Below are positions 13,421 to 20,964 of a stretch of 64,000 bases of DNA, in pieces. The position numbers and the translations under genes were made by a program. Below the pieces are notes generated by a model. That model searched no databases, was not told the DNA's origin, and was given only the letters and a program-made list of their open reading frames with translations. This stretch comes from Polyangium spumosum (lineage in GTDB: Bacteria > Myxococcota_A > Polyangia > Polyangiales > Polyangiaceae). Positions within the stretch are counted from its first letter, which is position 1. Each line of letters begins with the position of its first letter. The stretch spans positions 186,001-250,000 of the forward strand of contig NZ_WJIE01000001.1 of NCBI RefSeq assembly GCF_009649845.1, in the 5' to 3' direction.

Positions 13421-13645
13421 CTAGGAGAGCTGGGAGGGAGGCGTCTTGTTGGAGCGCTCCTCTTCGATGAGGATCGTGAAGACGAGCCCGGCGCCGAGGA
13501 TGGGCAAGAGCCAGATGAGCTGCGACTGGAGGATCTTCTGCTTGCGCTCGAAGAGGCGGCTCTTCCAGACGCGGACGGTGAGCCAGGCCTGGAAAGTCAC
13601 GAGAGCGAGGAGAAGAGCGCCGAGGATGCCGTCGAAGAGGTCCAT
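13421..13645 (-). CDS. small two-helix membrane protein
   Basis: This 74-residue protein has two hydrophobic helices, about 8-25 (ILGALLLALVTFQAWLTV) and 43-60 (LIWLLPILGAGLVFTIL), separated by a basic loop. The second helix with its Leu-Pro-Ile-Leu-Gly resembles the N-terminal anchor of PLDc_N proteins, but that is weak. It lies 122 bp upstream of the pseudokinase gene on the same strand. Function is unknown. Confidence 0.6.
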   Translation of the reverse strand: MDLFDGILGALLLALVTFQAWLTVRVWKSRLFERKQKILQSQLIWLLPILGAGLVFTILIEEERSNKTPPSQLS

Positions 13646-13735
13646 GGGAGTGGGGGGAACCTAGCCAGCCAGGCTGGGCTTTCAAGGAGGGGGGCGGGCG
13701 ATTTTCGGGGCGGGGGGCGGGAGGAGGTTACCACC

Positions 13736-13764
13736 TTGACCCGGTTTCCGGCCGTTGCTCATCT
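13736..13764 (+). promoter_or_regulatory. candidate promoter of the ATPase/PIN pair
   Basis: TTGACC (13736-13741) and TCATCT (13759-13764) are separated by 17 bp and end six bases before the ATG of the ATPase gene. If used, transcription would begin at or very near the start codon. The -10 match is weak. Confidence 0.35.
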
Positions 13765-13770
13765 TCGCGC

Positions 13771-15084
13771 ATGACCTCCCGCGCCACGCCGTCGCTCCGC
13801 ATCTCCCGGCTGGTCGTTCAGAACTTCCGCACGTTCCACGGCCCGACCGAGATCCCGCTCGCGTCGTCGGAAGGCGTCGCGGACGAGGTCGCGGTGTTCC
13901 ACGGGGGGAACGGGAGCGGGAAGTCGAACGCGCTGGCGGCGCTGGAGTTGTTCTTCAGGGGGGCGCTCCTGTGGCTTCGCAGGCGTGCCAACCTGAAGTC
14001 TGAGACGCTCACGCTCGGCTGGGACAGCGCGGAAGCGACGTCAATCTTGTTCCTCTCCCATCGGGATTGGCCGCCCGGGATCCGCGAGCCCATGCGGATC
14101 GAAGTTCACTTCGAGGGGAATGATCAGACGCTCGCGGTGGACCTCATCCAGGCGGGTAGCGATTGCAACCTCATCGTGGACGGCGTCGCCCACCTAGGCG
14201 GCAACTTGAGTGTCGGTCTTCTACGAGACCCATATCTCGCGCCGCTCCGCACGAAACTGGAGTCACCCCTGGGAGCCGGCAGCCAACCACTCCTTCGACT
14301 GGATGCGCGTCGCCGGGAGTCGCGCTTTTACAGCAGCCTCAATCAGCAGCTTGGTCCCCAGAAGACGAGCGCCCCCGATAGCCCTCTGTCTCGCGAACTA
14401 GCCACACGCCTCCTCGATCTCGCGACCTCTCTCGAACCCCTCGACACCGAGCGCTGGCGCGCCTTTACGCAGCTCGTCTCGCGCTTCAAGACGCTCGCGG
14501 GTCGCGAGGTCAACATCCTGCGCCTCCCCGACGGCAGCGCCGATCTCCGCTTCGAGATCCGCGGCAAGCAGATCCTCCGCGTCTCGGAGCTCAGCTCGGG
14601 CGAACAGCAAGTCGTCGCCCTCTGCGCCGCCGTGCTCACGTCGCGCGCGGCCATCGTGGCGATCGAGGAGCCAGAGATCAGCCTGCACCCGGACTACCAG
14701 GAGCTCCTTCGCGACGTGCTGCGCGAGCAAGTGCGAAGCGGCCTCGTCGACCAAATCATCCTGGAGAGCCACGTCCCTATCTTCGATGGCCCCGAGGTCA
14801 TCCGCTTCAGCCGATCCCCCGAGGGCGTGACGTCCGTCGTACGGCAGCCCTCCGACGCGCACGACGCGCTTCGACAACGTGCTCGTAAGAGCGGCGCCGA
14901 GGATCAGTGGGTGACACCCGACGGGTACACGAAGCTGCCGAAGGTCATGCTCGACAACCTCGGGCTACAAGCCGGTGGTTACCTCTGGTTCGCACGATCC
15001 ACACCTGGGGGACGCTGGGAAGCCTGGAAGACCGAGGAGATCGACGACGCCCTCGGCCTGCCTGGCGACGACGCAGAGGACTAG
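13771..15084 (+). CDS. OLD/RecF-like ABC-type ATPase with C-terminal AbrB-like domain
   Basis: This 437-residue protein starts with the typical SMC/RecF/OLD strand (LRISRLVVQNFRTF). Motifs in order are Walker A GGNGSGKS (45-52), signature LSSGEQQ (274-280), Walker B IVAIEEPE (295-302) with ISLHP as D-loop, and H-loop ILESH (330-334). No TOPRIM domain follows, unlike OLD and GajA. Residues about 380-420 (VTPDGYTKLPKVMLDNLGLQ, then AGGYLWFAR) read like an AbrB/SpoVT swapped-hairpin domain, the DNA- and toxin-binding fold of VapB antitoxins. The next gene, 3 bp downstream, is PIN-like (VapC-like), so the ATPase may be a sensor fused to an antitoxin. It sits next to a repeat array and transposon, fitting an accessory region. 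ATPase assignment is firm; the AbrB reading is by eye, and the role is inferred. Confidence 0.8.
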   Translation: MTSRATPSLRISRLVVQNFRTFHGPTEIPLASSEGVADEVAVFHGGNGSGKSNALAALELFFRGALLWLRRRANLKSETLTLGWDSAEATSILFLSHRDWPPGIREPMRIEVHFEGNDQTLAVDLIQAGSDCNLIVDGVAHLGGNLSVGLLRDPYLAPLRTKLESPLGAGSQPLLRLDARRRESRFYSSLNQQLGPQKTSAPDSPLSRELATRLLDLATSLEPLDTERWRAFTQLVSRFKTLAGREVNILRLPDGSADLRFEIRGKQILRVSELSSGEQQVVALCAAVLTSRAAIVAIEEPEISLHPDYQELLRDVLREQVRSGLVDQIILESHVPIFDGPEVIRFSRSPEGVTSVVRQPSDAHDALRQRARKSGAEDQWVTPDGYTKLPKVMLDNLGLQAGGYLWFARSTPGGRWEAWKTEEIDDALGLPGDDAED

Positions 15085-15087
15085 TCC

Positions 15088-15612
15088 ATGTTCCGTCTAT
15101 GGCTCGATACGAACTGCGCGCGGAGCGCGCCGAGGCTCCGGAAGCTCCAGCCGCTCGCGCGAGAGAAGGGGGTTACGGTCGTCATCCACCCGCAGGTCTA
15201 TCTCGAGCGGCGGCGCCAGATGCGCGTGGAGAAGGGTGATGCCTTCTCGTCGCAAGTGTTCGACGACCTCGTCGTGAAACAGCTGGGTATTGAGGTCTCC
15301 AAGCTCGAACTCGCTCAGTCGCTCGCCGCGGCCTGGGCAGACACGCTCTACGATCGGTATCCGACCGCTGAAGCGTGGGAAGGCGCCAAGCAAAAATCGC
15401 TCGGCGGTGAGCTCCGCAAGGGCTTCGAGGTCCCTCCCGGCGACATGCCCATGACCACGGACTGGCTCGTCTCCCTCCTCGTGGAGAGCGACCCCACCGC
15501 GCGGATCGTCACGCACGACGACGGCGAAGAGTGGCGCGCGCTCCGTGAAGCCAAGCGTGTCCTCTCCTGGAACGAGGCGATCACGTGGCTCGAAGGCCTT
15601 CCCCCCGCCTGA
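15088..15612 (+). CDS. PIN-like nuclease (putative toxin/effector)
   Basis: This 174-residue protein fits the PIN pattern of four acidic residues: Asp7 in LWLDTN, Glu40 in VYLERRRQ, Asp125 in MTTDWLVSLLVE, and Asp144/Asp145 in ARIVTHDDGEEW. The first and last lie at the ends of predicted beta strands, as in VapC ribonucleases. The spacing between the second and third acids is longer than in a minimal PIN (about 130 residues total), giving a helical insert at about 55-115. It starts 3 bp after the ATPase stop and is surely co-transcribed. PIN proteins usually cut tRNA, rRNA or mRNA and are held inactive by an antitoxin. Here the AbrB-like tail of the ATPase is the obvious candidate partner. 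The fold is inferred from motif spacing only. Confidence 0.6.
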   Translation: MFRLWLDTNCARSAPRLRKLQPLAREKGVTVVIHPQVYLERRRQMRVEKGDAFSSQVFDDLVVKQLGIEVSKLELAQSLAAAWADTLYDRYPTAEAWEGAKQKSLGGELRKGFEVPPGDMPMTTDWLVSLLVESDPTARIVTHDDGEEWRALREAKRVLSWNEAITWLEGLPPA

Positions 15613-15639
15613 GCCTGTAGGCCAGTCCGCACAATCGAC

Positions 15640-15927
15640 GTTCCCCTCCGTCGCAACGCTCCCAGAGCCGGTTCCAGAGCGATTCCCACGCGTCGCAACG
15701 CTCCCGGATCCGGTTCCGGGGCGATTCCCACACGTCGCAACGACCCCCAGATCCGGATCCCGGACGGTTCCCACGCGTCGCAACGCTCCCAGATCCGGAT
15801 CCGGGACGATTCCCACACGTCGCAACGCTCCCAGAGCCGGATCCGGGACGGTTCCCCCGCGTCGCAACGACCTCCAGATCCGGATCCCAGACGATTCCCA
15901 CACGTCGCAACGCTCCCAGAGCCGGAT
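15640..15927. repeat. tandem array of 42/43-bp repeats (left part)
   Basis: About seven head-to-tail copies begin at 15640, 15681, 15723, 15766, 15808, 15850 and 15893, each 42 or 43 bp with roughly 80-95% identity. Each copy contains TTCCCACRCGTCGCAACG followed by CCGGATCC-like bases, and there is no unique spacer. The first copy is degenerate. The last stops after 35 bp, where the transposon-like element begins; its missing 7 bp and half of a further copy resume at 19774. The array starts 27 bp after the PIN gene stop. No function is known. Confidence 0.9.
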
Positions 15928-15969
15928 GGTAGTGGCTGGATCCGGCCAGTCCTGAAAAGTGGCCGGGTT
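15928..15969 (+). repeat. left inverted end of the element
   Basis: Terminal GGTAGTGGCTGG followed 16 bases later by AAAGTGGCCGGGTT. The same two blocks occur in inverted order at the right end. Repeated GTGGCCGG cores look like multiple transposase-binding sites. Confidence 0.75.
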
Positions 15970-16245
15970 TGAACCGGCGCCCGGCACACGCCCGCTCTAC
16001 TCCCGAACGCCCGCCGCGGACCGTTCGCGTCCGATCCTCGCACGTCGCGCTTGACCTTCGCTTCGGCTCGATTCCGCGTCGACGCGTACCCGGACGAACC
16101 TCTCAAGATGAGACATTCACTGTCCTAGCCGAGCGCGAAACACCGCAAAACGCGGGCGATCCGTGCTATTGTCCCTTCATCACTTGAACCGCTCCGATGA
16201 GTCGCCGCGAGAGACGCGCGACGCCGGAGCGCTGGCGAGGGGACC

Positions 16246-17370
16246 ATGGCGAACGTCCTGGATCCGGAGAAGCGTCTGCGCGTGCTTGCCGCCCTGGTAG
16301 AGGGCAACAGCGAGCGCGCGGTCGAGCGCATGACGGGCGTCAACCGCGAGACCGTCGGGCGCCTCTCGCTCATGTTCGGCGAGGGCGCGATCCGGCTGCA
16401 CAACCGCGTCGCCCGCGATCTCGCGTGCTCGCTCGTGACCGTCGACGAGCAGTGGTCGTTCGTGAAGAAGAAGCAAGCCCGCGTAACCATCGACGATTCA
16501 TCGGACGTCGGCGAGGCGTACACCTTCGTGGCGCTCGACGCGTCGAGCCGCTTCGTCATCGCGTGGCACGTGGGGAAGCGCGACCAGGCGTCGACGGACA
16601 TCTTCATGAACGACGTCCGCGCCCGGCTCGTCGTCATGCCCGCCATGACCTCGGACGGCTTCGCCCCGTATATCAGCGCGATCGGCGCGTCCTTCGGTCC
16701 GAGCATCGACTATGCGCAGACCGTCAAGAACTACACGAAGCGCGGACGGCGCGAGGGAGGGCCGGATCATCGGTACGAGCCGCCCCGCGATCCCTTCATC
16801 ACGAAGAAGGTCGTCTACGGGGCGCCGAACCTGGACGCGGCGAGCACGGCCTACGTCGAGCGCAACAACGCCACGATGCGCCACCACATCGGCCGCATGC
16901 GTCGCCTCTGCTTGGCGTTCTCGAAGAAGCTCGCCAATCACCGCGCCGCGGTCGCCCTGAACTACGCCTGGTATAACCTAGGAACGATCGTGAAGACCCT
17001 CCGCGTGACGCCCGCCATGGCCGCCGGAGTCACGGATCACGTCTGGTCGCTGGAGGAGTTCATGGCGGCGTTGCTCGACGAGACGCCGTGCGAGGCGCCC
17101 ACGAAGCGGGAGCTACGCCCGCGGACGCCCGAAGGGACGGCGCGAGAGCTCCCCGGCGGGCGCGGCTTCCTCCGCGTCGTCGACGGCGGGAAGGGCAAGG
17201 CGAACGAGGCGCCGAAGCCTCCCCAGCCTCCCCGGCCTCCCGCTCCGGTCCGCTACGCGACGCCGCACGTGGACGATCACGAGGCGCACTGGGAGCAGAT
17301 GGATCTCCTCGCGTGGCGTGCGCGGGAGCGGCAACTGTCGTTCTTCGACGACGAGCCGGACGACGAGTAG
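16246..17370 (+). CDS. IS1-family-like DDE transposase
   Basis: This 374-residue protein has an N-terminal helix-turn-helix (about 8-45, LRVLAALVEGNSERAVERMT). Its DDE core has Asp67 in VDEQWSFV, Asp137 in TSDGFAPY and Glu205 in YVERNNATMR. The conserved tail TPAMAAGVTDHVWSLEEFM follows. This matches the broad group of IS1-like transposases with a single intact reading frame. The C-terminal 100 residues are Pro/Arg-rich and extra to the family. The ATG used follows GAGGGGACC. It is the only recombinase gene between the element's inverted ends, so it may move the element. Proteins of this group are, however, often stable host genes. The preceding 276 bp inside the element hold no gene. Confidence 0.82.
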   Translation: MANVLDPEKRLRVLAALVEGNSERAVERMTGVNRETVGRLSLMFGEGAIRLHNRVARDLACSLVTVDEQWSFVKKKQARVTIDDSSDVGEAYTFVALDASSRFVIAWHVGKRDQASTDIFMNDVRARLVVMPAMTSDGFAPYISAIGASFGPSIDYAQTVKNYTKRGRREGGPDHRYEPPRDPFITKKVVYGAPNLDAASTAYVERNNATMRHHIGRMRRLCLAFSKKLANHRAAVALNYAWYNLGTIVKTLRVTPAMAAGVTDHVWSLEEFMAALLDETPCEAPTKRELRPRTPEGTARELPGGRGFLRVVDGGKGKANEAPKPPQPPRPPAPVRYATPHVDDHEAHWEQMDLLAWRARERQLSFFDDEPDDE

Positions 17371-17783
17371 CGCTCTCGAAAGTTGGTTCGAATTCGAACA
17401 CTCCTTACATGAGTGTGAATTCGAAGACCAGGCCACAGCACGAACACACTGGACAGCCCTCGAACCATGGACTAAGCCGTGGTCGTGGTCGCTTGCCGTA
17501 CAGACGGTCGCCTTCGTCCAGGGATGTTCTCTAGACTTTGGCAGATTGTCTCAACTTGAGATTAGTCGCAACTTAAAAGTTGTTGACCGGCGACGCGGCG
17601 AACGACCCACGGAGGCCGGAACCAAAAAGAAAGGCGAGCAGCAGAGACGTAAACATCCCCACAACTCGCCTATCACCCGATTGGACCCGGATGGTAGGCA
17701 GGTAGCACGAAGGCTAACTTCGTCAAGGGGTCGTTTTGTCCAACGGCTGCGGCGCGTCTGGGAAGGTCCGGACAACGCAGTAG
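17371..17783. other. non-coding stretch in the element with three palindromes
   Basis: This 413-bp gap lacks a convincing gene and is less GC-rich than its surroundings. It contains GTTCGAATTCGAAC (17386-17399), a perfect 14-bp palindrome that also pairs with TGAATTCGAA at about 17416-17425 to make a larger imperfect hairpin. Further on are TCTCAACTTGAGA (17549-17561) and CAACTTAAAAGTTG (17569-17582), 7 bp apart and sharing CAACTT. These are plausible operators for the helix-turn-helix proteins encoded in the same element. Confidence 0.5.
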
Positions 17784-18041
17784 GTGGCTAAGCAGAGTAC
17801 CAACCCCAAGAACATCAACTTCCGCACGTCGTACATCCACCACCGCACCGGGAAGCGAGTCTACGCCCGGCCCGGGCATCCATTCCCGATTCCGAGAGGT
17901 TCGAGGCGTAAAAAGCGCATCGAACCGGCTCCGTCCGAGCAACTTGTGCTTCCTGGGATGGAGATGTTCGTCGAAGCGCCCCGACCGCCGCGTCCTCCGG
18001 CGAAGGTGAGGACGCCGAAGAAAGCCCGCGGCAACCGGTAG
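17784..18041 (+). CDS. small basic protein of unknown function
   Basis: This 85-residue protein is rich in Lys, Arg and Pro, with a GTG start. Its first half (INFRTSYIHHRTGKRVYARP) looks folded; the C-terminus (PPRPPAKVRTPKKARGNR) is basic and probably disordered. It lies inside the element between the transposase and the convergent regulator cassette, and is followed by a clear terminator. There is no strong ribosome site. The composition suggests nucleic-acid binding, but no family is recognised. Confidence 0.5.
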   Translation: MAKQSTNPKNINFRTSYIHHRTGKRVYARPGHPFPIPRGSRRKKRIEPAPSEQLVLPGMEMFVEAPRPPRPPAKVRTPKKARGNR

Positions 18042-18059
18042 CGGGCGGGTAGAGGGGGA

Positions 18060-18101
18060 GCGTCGGGCGTCTGGGCTTCGGCCTGGGCGCCCGACGCCTT
18101 T
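18060..18101. terminator. intrinsic terminator between convergent genes in the element
   Basis: A perfect 10-bp stem, GCGTCGGGCG (18060-18069) with CGCCCGACGC (18088-18097), is followed on the plus strand by CTTTT. It directly abuts the stop of the sigma-like gene and closes the plus-strand 85-residue gene. Confidence 0.75.
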
Positions 18102-18689
18102 TCAGCGCTTCTGCTTCCGCGACCAGCGGGGCCGACCGTACCTCGCGGCGAGCTGCCGTCGGGCGGTCATGGTCGCGTTGTAGACCGTGTGCAGTTCGAT
18201 TCCGAGCCGCGCGGCGATGTCCTCCGCGCTCTCGCCCTGCACGACGAGCAGAAGGACGCGCATCGGCCGTGCCTTCGACCGTGCGAGGTGACGGAGCACG
18301 CGCCGCGCCTCCGCGATGTCCTCCGGACGCGCCGCGGGATCGGAAAGGTCGCGCTCGTGCTCCTCGCCGATCGGGACGTGCCGGGCGTCCTTGCGGCGCA
18401 GCCGGGCGGCCTGGTTGCCCGCGACGCGCCACGCGATGTTGACGAGGAGCGAACGGATCACGACGTCGGGCGGGTCGGTGTACGCGCCGCGCACGCGCCC
18501 CTCATCGACCATCTGCCAGAGAACGTAGAGCGCGTCCTGCGTCACCTCGTCGGCGTCCGCCTCGCCGAGCACGGGCCACTTCGCGCGGAGGTAGGAGCGG
18601 GCGAAGCCGCGGTAGGCGTCGAGATCGCGCGGCGTCGCTTCGACGACGGGCTCGCCGGGGCGCTCGGGATCGTGGCGGTACCGGATCAC
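18102..18689 (-). CDS. ECF-like RNA polymerase sigma factor
   Basis: This 195-residue protein has a sigma-2-like region (about 38-80, DADEVTQDALYVLWQM) and a sigma-4-like helix-turn-helix (about 145-185, VQGESAEDIAARLGIELHTV). Between them is a charged linker. It starts with GTG after GGAGG, and that start overlaps the stop of the upstream HTH gene by four bases. It is the last of four overlapping genes, so expression is translationally coupled. ECF sigma factors redirect RNA polymerase to a few promoters. Inside a mobile element this one could drive the element's own genes. No anti-sigma with membrane helices is seen; the small HTH proteins may take that role. Confidence 0.72.
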   Translation of the reverse strand: MIRYRHDPERPGEPVVEATPRDLDAYRGFARSYLRAKWPVLGEADADEVTQDALYVLWQMVDEGRVRGAYTDPPDVVIRSLLVNIAWRVAGNQAARLRRKDARHVPIGEEHERDLSDPAARPEDIAEARRVLRHLARSKARPMRVLLLVVQGESAEDIAARLGIELHTVYNATMTARRQLAARYGRPRWSRKQKR

Positions 18690-18952
18690 GGCCCACCTCC
18701 GCAAACGAGCCCGAGAAGGACCGCCAGATCGATCCGCGTCACGCGCGCCACCTGCGCGGCGAAGTGAACCGACGCGCGGATCTCGCCCGCGACGACCGCG
18801 CGCATGTACCGGCGCGAGTAGCCGAGCGAGCGCGCGGCGATGCGGACGCTCGTTCCGCGGGCGAAGCGTTCGAGCCTCGCGCGGACGCGTTCGTTCTGCT
18901 CCTCCGTGAGCGTCGCGGGGACGCTCATCGGCTCCCGATCTTGCTCGCTCAT
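18686..18952 (-). CDS. small helix-turn-helix protein (third of three)
   Basis: This 88-residue protein has a helix-turn-helix at about 32-80 (GTSVRIAARSLGYSRRYMRAVVAGE). It resembles its two upstream neighbours in fold and spacing, ending in a Leu-Leu-Gly segment. ATG 18952 follows GGGAGG. It overlaps both neighbours by four bases. It may repress or partner the sigma-like protein; this is inference from position. Confidence 0.65.
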   Translation of the reverse strand: MSEQDREPMSVPATLTEEQNERVRARLERFARGTSVRIAARSLGYSRRYMRAVVAGEIRASVHFAAQVARVTRIDLAVLLGLVCGGGP

Positions 18953-19272
18953 GACGCGCCTCCCTTCCGACGAGGGGAGGACACGAGGACGAGCGCGGGC
19001 GCCTTCCGCGGGGGAGCCTTCCCGACGAGCGCGTCTTCGAGCGACAGACCGACCGCGCGGGCGATGCTCCGGGCGAGAGCGATGTTGCCGGGCTCGATCC
19101 CGTCGCAGAACGCAAGCACGAACGACCGGCGGAAGCTCACGAGGTGAGCGACCTTCGTCCACGTCCCGTGCTCGCGGTGAAGGTGGCGCAGGAGGGCGCG
19201 GAGGTTCGAGCGCTGGATCTCGATCAGGTCCGAGCCGCGGAGGGGACGGACGCGGTACTTCGAGGTCGTCAT
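18949..19272 (-). CDS. small XRE-like helix-turn-helix protein (second of three)
   Basis: This 107-residue protein has a Cro/XRE-like helix-turn-helix at about 37-85 (GTWTKVAHLVSFRRSFVLAF, then ARSIARAVGLSLEDAL). A short basic tail (VLVSSPRRKGG) follows. Its ATG overlaps the stop of the upstream HTH gene and its stop overlaps the downstream start, four bases each. The shared architecture with both neighbours suggests ancient tandem duplication. DNA target unknown. Confidence 0.65.
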   Translation of the reverse strand: MTTSKYRVRPLRGSDLIEIQRSNLRALLRHLHREHGTWTKVAHLVSFRRSFVLAFCDGIEPGNIALARSIARAVGLSLEDALVGKAPPRKAPALVLVSSPRRKGGAS

Positions 19273-19613
19273 CGCGCCGCCCCCTTCCCGCAGAGGGGAC
19301 ACGCGTCGGCGACGACGGGCGGGCCGATCAGTCGTTCGACCGTCGAGCCCACCGATCGGGCGACGGCGAGCACGAAGCCGAGCGAGACGCGCCCGGTGCT
19401 CCCGGCCTTCTCGACCGTGGAGAGCGAGAGGCCCGTCGCGGCGGCGAAGCACGGGTACGAACCGAACGCGCGCCGGAGATTCCGGATCGCCGCGCGGAGG
19501 CGGGCGCGTTCGGCGGAAGACAGGGAAAGCTTGGGGTTCTTCTTCGGGCGACGACGGGACGGACGTCCGCCGTCTTGCCCCTCGCGCGAGGGACGAACTA
19601 GGGTGAGCGTCAC
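19269..19613 (-). CDS. small XRE-like helix-turn-helix protein with CPLC tail (first of three)
   Basis: This 114-residue protein leads the four-gene overlapping cassette. After a basic N-terminus (RPSRRRPKKNPK), residues about 35-95 form a Cro-like helix-turn-helix (GSYPCFAAATGLSLSTVEKA). The C-terminus ends with CPLCGKGAAR, half of a zinc-ribbon-like motif that could pair in a dimer. I chose the GTG at 19613 because GGAGG stands eight bases before it. The open frame continues to 19697 without a ribosome site. It is likely the autoregulated first gene of the cassette. Confidence 0.65.
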   Translation of the reverse strand: MTLTLVRPSREGQDGGRPSRRRPKKNPKLSLSSAERARLRAAIRNLRRAFGSYPCFAAATGLSLSTVEKAGSTGRVSLGFVLAVARSVGSTVERLIGPPVVADACPLCGKGAAR

Positions 19614-19730
19614 GATCGTGACCTCCGGTGAGAGGTTGCGGTCGAGCCGCCTCGGGGGATGTAGGAGTCCTCCGAGGCGGCGCCTTTTCAGGCCCACTCA
19701 CCGTACGGCATCGCGATCGCGTTGTGGCCG

Positions 19731-19765
19731 AACCCGGCCACTTTCAATCAAAACCGGCCACTACC
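19731..19765 (-). repeat. right inverted end of the element
   Basis: Inverted copy of the left end: AACCCGGCCACTTT (19731-19744) and terminal CCGGCCACTACC (19754-19765), followed immediately by the second AGCCGGAT copy. Confidence 0.75.
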
Positions 19766-19773
19766 AGCCGGAT

Positions 19774-19799
19774 CCGGGACGATTCCCACACGTCGCAAC
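19774..19799. repeat. right remnant of the interrupted 42-bp repeat array
   Basis: CCGGGAC (19774-19780) supplies exactly the 7 bp missing from the last unit at 15893-15927. The next 19 bp (19781-19799) are the first half of another unit in the same orientation. This shows that the array predates the insertion. Confidence 0.85.
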
Positions 19800-19866
19800 C
19801 TCGATGGCTCCGCTTCCGGGCGCGTTCCGCCTTCGCGGCCCCGCCTTCTTGGCTAGAGTGTCGCCC

Positions 19867-20964
19867 GTGCGGCTCCGGATCCTCGCCTGCGCGCTCGCCC
19901 TCGCCGCGCCGCTCGCCCTCGCAACCTTGCTCGGCGCGGGCTGCGACCTGCCTTCCTCCGATGTCGACGGCGGGGATCTGCGCGGCGTCTTCGATCGAGA
20001 CGCCGCAGCCGCCGACGCCGCGGCGAGCGACGCAGGCCGGAAGGACGCAGGCCGGAAGGACGGCGGAGCCACGCCCGCCCTGCCGGCGTCGGCCGTCGCC
20101 AAGCCGGTCACGCGTCCCCCGACCGAAGGGAGCTGCGTCGCGGTCGACGGGCTGCCGGACAAGGACATCAAGCGCACCCTCGGACGGCCACCTTGCCCCG
20201 GCGCCGAGGTCCTCGAGTGGAAGGACGCCGCAGGCGCGCCGCGTTACGCCTGCGTCATCACGCCCAAGGGCATCGAGACACGTGCTCCCTTGCCGCTGCT
20301 CGTCTTCTTCCACGACGCCGGCGACAACCCGCGCAGCGTCGACAAGGAGACCTCCCTGCGCAAGCTCGGCGCTCGCTTCGACCTCACAGGCGACCCCGCG
20401 CACGCAGGGTTCATCGTCCTCTCCCCGCAAGGCCGCGCCCTGCACGGCAACCGCGAGGGCGCCATGTTCGACATCGACTACACCGGCGAGGACAACGTCG
20501 ACGTCGCCACGACCGACCACTTCATCTCCGTGCTCACGACGCGCGGACACGTCGATCGACGCCGGATCTACGCCGTCGGCGCCGGGCACGGCGGGCACAT
20601 GGCCGCGACCTACGCGATGATGCGCGCCGATCGCGTCGCCGCGTTCGCCACGTACGGCAGCGACGCGCCACGCGCCGCGTGGTCCTGCCCAGGTCCGCCG
20701 CCGCCCGCGTTCGTGATGTACCGGGCCTGCGATCAGATCTCGCCTTGCGCCTCGGTCGAGCGCTGGCTGCGCTCGCGCGACGCGCTCGCGGCCGAGACCA
20801 CGGGCCTCCGGCTCGGCGCCGCGAACGCCGAGGAGCCCTCGTGCGCGATCGACAAGAAATGCACGAAGATCGTCGGGACGGCCCTCCACCGCCGCTGGCC
20901 CAAGGGGCGCGAGGCGGACCTGCTCCGGTCCCTGTCGCGCCACACGCTCTCCGTCGCGCCCTGA
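19867..20964 (+). CDS. lipoprotein related to PHB-depolymerase/feruloyl-type esterases, nucleophile lost
   Basis: This 365-residue protein begins with a signal peptide and lipobox LLGAGC. An Asp/Ala/Lys-rich linker leads to an alpha/beta-hydrolase fold resembling the LpqC/PHB-depolymerase family: PLPLLVFFHDAGDN carries the oxyanion strand, and YAVGAGHGGHMAATYA is the nucleophile elbow. In that elbow the expected Gly-x-Ser-x-Gly reads Gly-Ala-Gly240-His-Gly, so the catalytic Ser is replaced by Gly. The GGG codon is clear. It is probably a binding protein or a dead esterase at the cell surface. Several cysteines could form disulfides. The GTG at 19867 is preferred; GTG 19858 and ATG 19804 are also in frame. 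A TAGAGT hexamer sits eight bases before the start. Confidence 0.68.
   Translation: MRLRILACALALAAPLALATLLGAGCDLPSSDVDGGDLRGVFDRDAAAADAAASDAGRKDAGRKDGGATPALPASAVAKPVTRPPTEGSCVAVDGLPDKDIKRTLGRPPCPGAEVLEWKDAAGAPRYACVITPKGIETRAPLPLLVFFHDAGDNPRSVDKETSLRKLGARFDLTGDPAHAGFIVLSPQGRALHGNREGAMFDIDYTGEDNVDVATTDHFISVLTTRGHVDRRRIYAVGAGHGGHMAATYAMMRADRVAAFATYGSDAPRAAWSCPGPPPPAFVMYRACDQISPCASVERWLRSRDALAAETTGLRLGAANAEEPSCAIDKKCTKIVGTALHRRWPKGREADLLRSLSRHTLSVAP

Follow-up and report, generated by a model that had tools for sequence, protein, structure and literature searches.

An IS1-family element of Polyangium spumosum carries a cassette of three HTH proteins and a predicted ECF-type sigma factor between its ends

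The element and its genes

The window, the whole 64,000-nucleotide stretch of the Polyangium spumosum contig NZ_WJIE01000001.1 that was analysed, contains a complete copy of an IS1-family element of 3,838 bp (positions 15928-19765), delimited by terminal inverted repeats and an exact 8-bp target duplication, AGCCGGAT, found at 15920-15927 on the left and at 19766-19773 on the right. The insertion target is a 42-bp tandem array (15640-15927), which continues beyond the right end, as far as about 19799. The left end (15928-15970, plus strand) is composed of GGTAGTGG, then the near-palindromic TGGCTGGATCCGGCCA and then another AGTGGCCGGG, and at the right end (19722-19765, minus strand) GGTAGTGGCCGG and a second AGTGGCCGGG form a direct repeat whose units lie about 20 bp from each other. 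An earlier note on this DNA had placed the genes described below in a mobile element, and the ends and target duplication bear this out. Just left of the element, adjoining the array, we observed a gene for an AAA ATPase (AriA/Mad3/PtuA-like) followed by one without a family match that by eye resembles a PIN gene (13771-15612), a possible defence pair outside the element.

The transposase gene (16246-17370, plus strand) is one ORF of 374 codons with a DDE_Tnp_IS1 domain (Pfam PF03400, 30.4 bits for a cutoff of 24.1). Termini of the IS1 family begin with a GGTRATG-like sequence and the target duplication is 8-9 bp long. The termini of the window copy start with GGTAGTG, which is of this kind, those of its relatives with GGTAATG or GGTGATG, and the duplication of exactly 8 bp falls within the family range. 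Classical IS1 has two ORFs joined by a frameshift, and single-ORF members of the family are known; because the transposase here is a single ORF, with no such frameshift-joined layout, the classical IS1 subgroup is excluded. No conjugation or integrase gene was recognised among the ORFs of 15928-19765, and a conjugative element (ICE) was rejected on this ground. Upstream of the transposase gene lies an extended -10-like box, CGTGCTATTGT (16162-16172, plus strand), preceded by AGACATTCACTGTCC (16111-16125, plus strand), judged by eye to be a degenerate copy of the dyad GGACA-N5-TGTCC that is conserved upstream of the transposase promoter in sister elements. Downstream, the cargo gene orf85 (17784-18041, plus strand), with relatives in three other elements, converges with the last gene of the cassette, and a terminator-like hairpin with a T run was seen by eye between them (18060-18102).

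The cassette itself is read from the minus strand. A -10-like box, TACGGT (19700-19705), recognised by eye and found as TANNNT at the same place in sister elements, precedes a 5' leader (19614-19695) containing a covarying hairpin, for which Rfam gave no match, as for the rest of 13500-20500. The leader is followed by H1 (19269-19613, 114 aa, GTG start), an XRE-like HTH protein with a C-terminal CPxCG, by two further XRE-like HTH proteins, H2 (18949-19272, 107 aa, ATG start) and H3 (18686-18952, 88 aa, ATG start), and by an ECF-like sigma factor (18102-18689, 195 aa, GTG start). The four ORFs overlap by exactly 4 bp each, as the earlier note had claimed, the overlap sequences being ATGA, ATGA and GTGA. 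Chance overlaps were rejected because they are retained in the majority of the 21 sigma-type cassettes described below.

The three HTH proteins had also been proposed to derive from a tandem duplication. Among the window's own proteins, a likeness is detectable only for H1 and H2 (31% identity, E 0.001), and family members connect all three, H1 of one copy matching H2 at 36% identity (E 1e-11) and H1 matching H3 at 35% identity (E 4e-6). The proposed homology thus holds, the duplication itself being old and its copies since reshuffled between elements. The XRE fold comprises four to five helices, and its assignment relies on homology for H2 and H3, the latter having a weak Pfam HTH_31 match below cutoff; for H1, a structure model of pLDDT 73 gave XRE proteins as top fold matches, including the restriction-modification controller C.AhdI and lambda repressor, at weak E-values (0.02 or more). 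The sigma-like reading of the last gene was upheld, the protein being predicted to be an ECF-type sigma factor by its full-length profile match to CnrH in a search against solved structures (E 7e-10) and by a fold search in which nearly all top matches were ECF sigmas (best E 9e-4), with a poor superposition of the whole chain. Its structure model is of good quality over residues 1-90 and of lower quality from there on. Only regions 2 and 4, the two expected of an ECF sigma, were seen: the window protein matched Pfam region 4 and sister copies matched region 2, with every single-copy score below the Pfam cutoff.

Distribution, targets and cargo of related elements

We surveyed 38 related transposases in six Polyangium genomes, including 17 copies in the window's own genome (G000). 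A cassette is paired with the transposase inside the element in 35 of them, 21 with the sigma-type cassette, a few of which are devoid of H2 or H3, and 14 with a second type composed of H1' and a small H4 protein (H1'-H4). The three unpaired transposases are L126 and L138, located near contig ends, and the solitary L137; a sigma gene adjoins that of L138. All eight close copies of the sigma gene in the window's own genome lie within such elements. A sigma relative with 42% identity was also observed at L122 (6389-6925), with no transposase or H gene nearby. Outside Polyangium, elements of Sorangium and other Polyangiaceae carry H1 with one sigma factor or H1 alone, and those of two Myxococcales MAGs carry H1 alone, H1 being the cassette gene with the widest distribution. 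Because these relatives have H1 with sigma or H1 alone, H1 is probably the oldest passenger, and the same distribution suggests that sigma would have been gained after H1, and H2 and H3 after sigma.

The 8-bp target duplication is exact in 31 of the 35 Polyangium elements (one has 9 bp) and in nine of ten elements examined outside this genus. Insertion into tandem arrays, mostly with a period of 21 bp or its double, was found for 23/35 elements as compared to 4/1000 controls from the same loci, far above chance. Three elements (L041, L118 and L119) have one target duplication in common, TGTCGAGA, which suggests a second preferred target. At least eight types of end motif were distinguished, arranged as a half-site palindrome at the left end and, at the right end, as direct repeats spaced by about 20 bp, and the motif type seems to go with the recognition helix of the transposase. 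In the window copy, judged by eye, it is this N-terminal helix, not the rest of the protein, that seems to match the end motif.

Between the transposase and the cassette lies a variable cargo segment, usually of 0.55-0.65 GC. PADLOC models identified PD-T4-10 A and B in L121, PDC-S42 in L021 and PDC-S13 in L135, with weaker matches in L019, L020 and L128. Unrelated genes thus occupy this segment, defence-type ones in some copies; most other cargo genes tested gave no family match, so that the cargo need not all be defence. A two-gene cargo shared by elements of two genomes (L022, 4633-6332; L140, 11904-13726) encodes a DUF4747 protein, or an apparent relative, and a membrane protein, possibly an uncharacterised system.

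Cassette genes with separate histories

In order to compare the histories of the genes, we used the 17 elements having all five of them. Approximately unbiased (AU) tests rejected the tree of any one gene for each of the others (p at most 1.3e-4), and the pairwise identity matrices of the genes correlated at just 0.01-0.36. The window element illustrates this, its best partners in its own genome being a different element for each gene: L009 for sigma, L013 for H3, L025 for H2, L012 for H1 and L024 for the transposase. Single cassette genes thus have separate histories, and the ends, promoters and transposase stay together. Comparison of L013 and L024 shows leaders, H3 and sigma genes that are mostly 92-100% alike, and H1 and cargo that differ, the switch from alike to unlike occurring near the H1 borders. 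The H1/H2 and H2/H3 borders have a common sequence in many copies, which makes this sequence a plausible site of exchange.

In the leader hairpin, compensatory changes affect seven of nine pairs, and on most measures the hairpin scores above every shuffled or slid control. For the pairs closest in dS, sigma has a dN/dS of 0.07-0.38 and H1 one of 0.15-0.30. Across all comparable sigma pairs it is high (median 0.72) and near saturation, so that purifying selection is shown for close pairs only.

Role of the cassette and comparison with known systems

The identity and architecture of the element and of its cassette are firm, and the cassette, lying as a whole between the ends, moves with the transposase. 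Its role would be a regulatory one. On balance, we favour the view that the cassette serves an IS1-family transporter IS as a built-in means of controlling the expression of the element and its cargo. H1 and its homologues would act as regulators of the phage-repressor type restraining the element's own genes (cassette, transposase and cargo), and the sigma factor would guide RNA polymerase not to the element's two conserved promoters but to others, most likely in front of cargo or host genes, which the cassette may control. Exchange of regulators would then give coexisting copies different specificities. Against this view count the lack of a family match for most cargo genes tested, the dyad search described below and the high dN/dS of sigma across all comparable pairs.

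The earlier note had viewed the cassette as a possible switch for transfer. No conjugation gene was recognised in the element. Close to this proposal is a transposition switch in which the sigma factor would activate its own transposase and cassette. Sigma and transposase do travel together in the sigma-type cassette, and the promoter regions of the transposase and of the cassette correlate with sigma weakly yet significantly (r 0.33 and 0.36, p 0.003-0.009). However, the same regions follow the transposase far more closely (r 0.90 and 0.82; for H1, 0.19 and 0.28), and the same transposase core promoter is found alongside sigmas that share only about 34% identity and also in elements without sigma. 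The transfer switch is not supported, and the promoter evidence makes a sigma factor driving its own transposase unlikely. The GGACA...TGTCC dyad is located 50-51 bp ahead of the extended -10-like box in most copies, with both cassette types. About ten further sites of this dyad, GGACANTNNNTGTCC, were observed elsewhere in the genome, outside elements, possibly a host regulon, and for this reason its binder may be a host protein.

About as improbable, in our judgement, is a cassette acting mainly on host genes and retained for benefit to the host or its manipulation. A dyad search for a promoter motif private to one sigma clade inside its elements gave nothing beyond control, which would fit this explanation, as would the selection on the regulators seen in close pairs, but no host site was identified, and in all places where both were mapped, strong H1 matches go with this transposase clade, a tie not expected of a general host regulator. 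Least credible is a cassette carried as baggage for lying inside the ends: passenger genes of a transporter IS need not serve the element, but this one occurs in 35 of 38 copies, with conserved gene borders and leader hairpin and a low dN/dS in close pairs.

Beyond the favoured control module, the family could be, and we advance this tentatively, a transposon that reshuffles its own components, with ends, promoters and transposase as a fixed frame and with regulator genes and defence cargo plugged in and swapped at short sequences shared by gene borders, so that copies in one cell gain different regulatory specificities. The usual picture of small insertion sequences is that of a transposase with hardly anything added. 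The IS1-type element described here has a nearly obligatory set of predicted regulators, which in part includes a sigma factor of its own, and a cargo slot that in some copies appears to include anti-phage genes. Having many diverged copies per genome, the family is a natural setting in which to test how cross-regulation is avoided or exploited by mobile elements, and how such moving elements package and control defence genes. In the open-licence literature on IS1 passengers, Polyangium insertion sequences, sigma factors associated with transposons and insertion sequences in minisatellites, we found no description of an IS1-type family with such a cassette.

Compared with known systems, the sigma factor shares regions 2 and 4 and a length of about 195 aa with ECF sigmas, CnrH (4cxf) being the closest solved one by profile, but it has no recognised anti-sigma gene adjoining it, is partnered with XRE-like proteins and is mobile. 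The H proteins may share the small XRE fold of C.AhdI-type controllers and lambda-type repressors and likewise sit with cargo that may need timed expression; in contrast to both, they occur as a tandem trio accompanied by a sigma factor, and H1 carries a C-terminal CPxCG. The element resembles single-ORF members of the IS1 family in its transposase domain, GGTRRTG-type ends and 8-bp duplication, and differs from them by a conserved regulator cassette and cargo, by the diversification of its ends into motif types and by its strong preference for arrays of 21-bp period. Finally, a transporter IS (tIS) is a single IS whose ends enclose passenger genes (PMC9330008), as observed here, where the passengers are an almost obligatory regulator cassette and a variable cargo slot.
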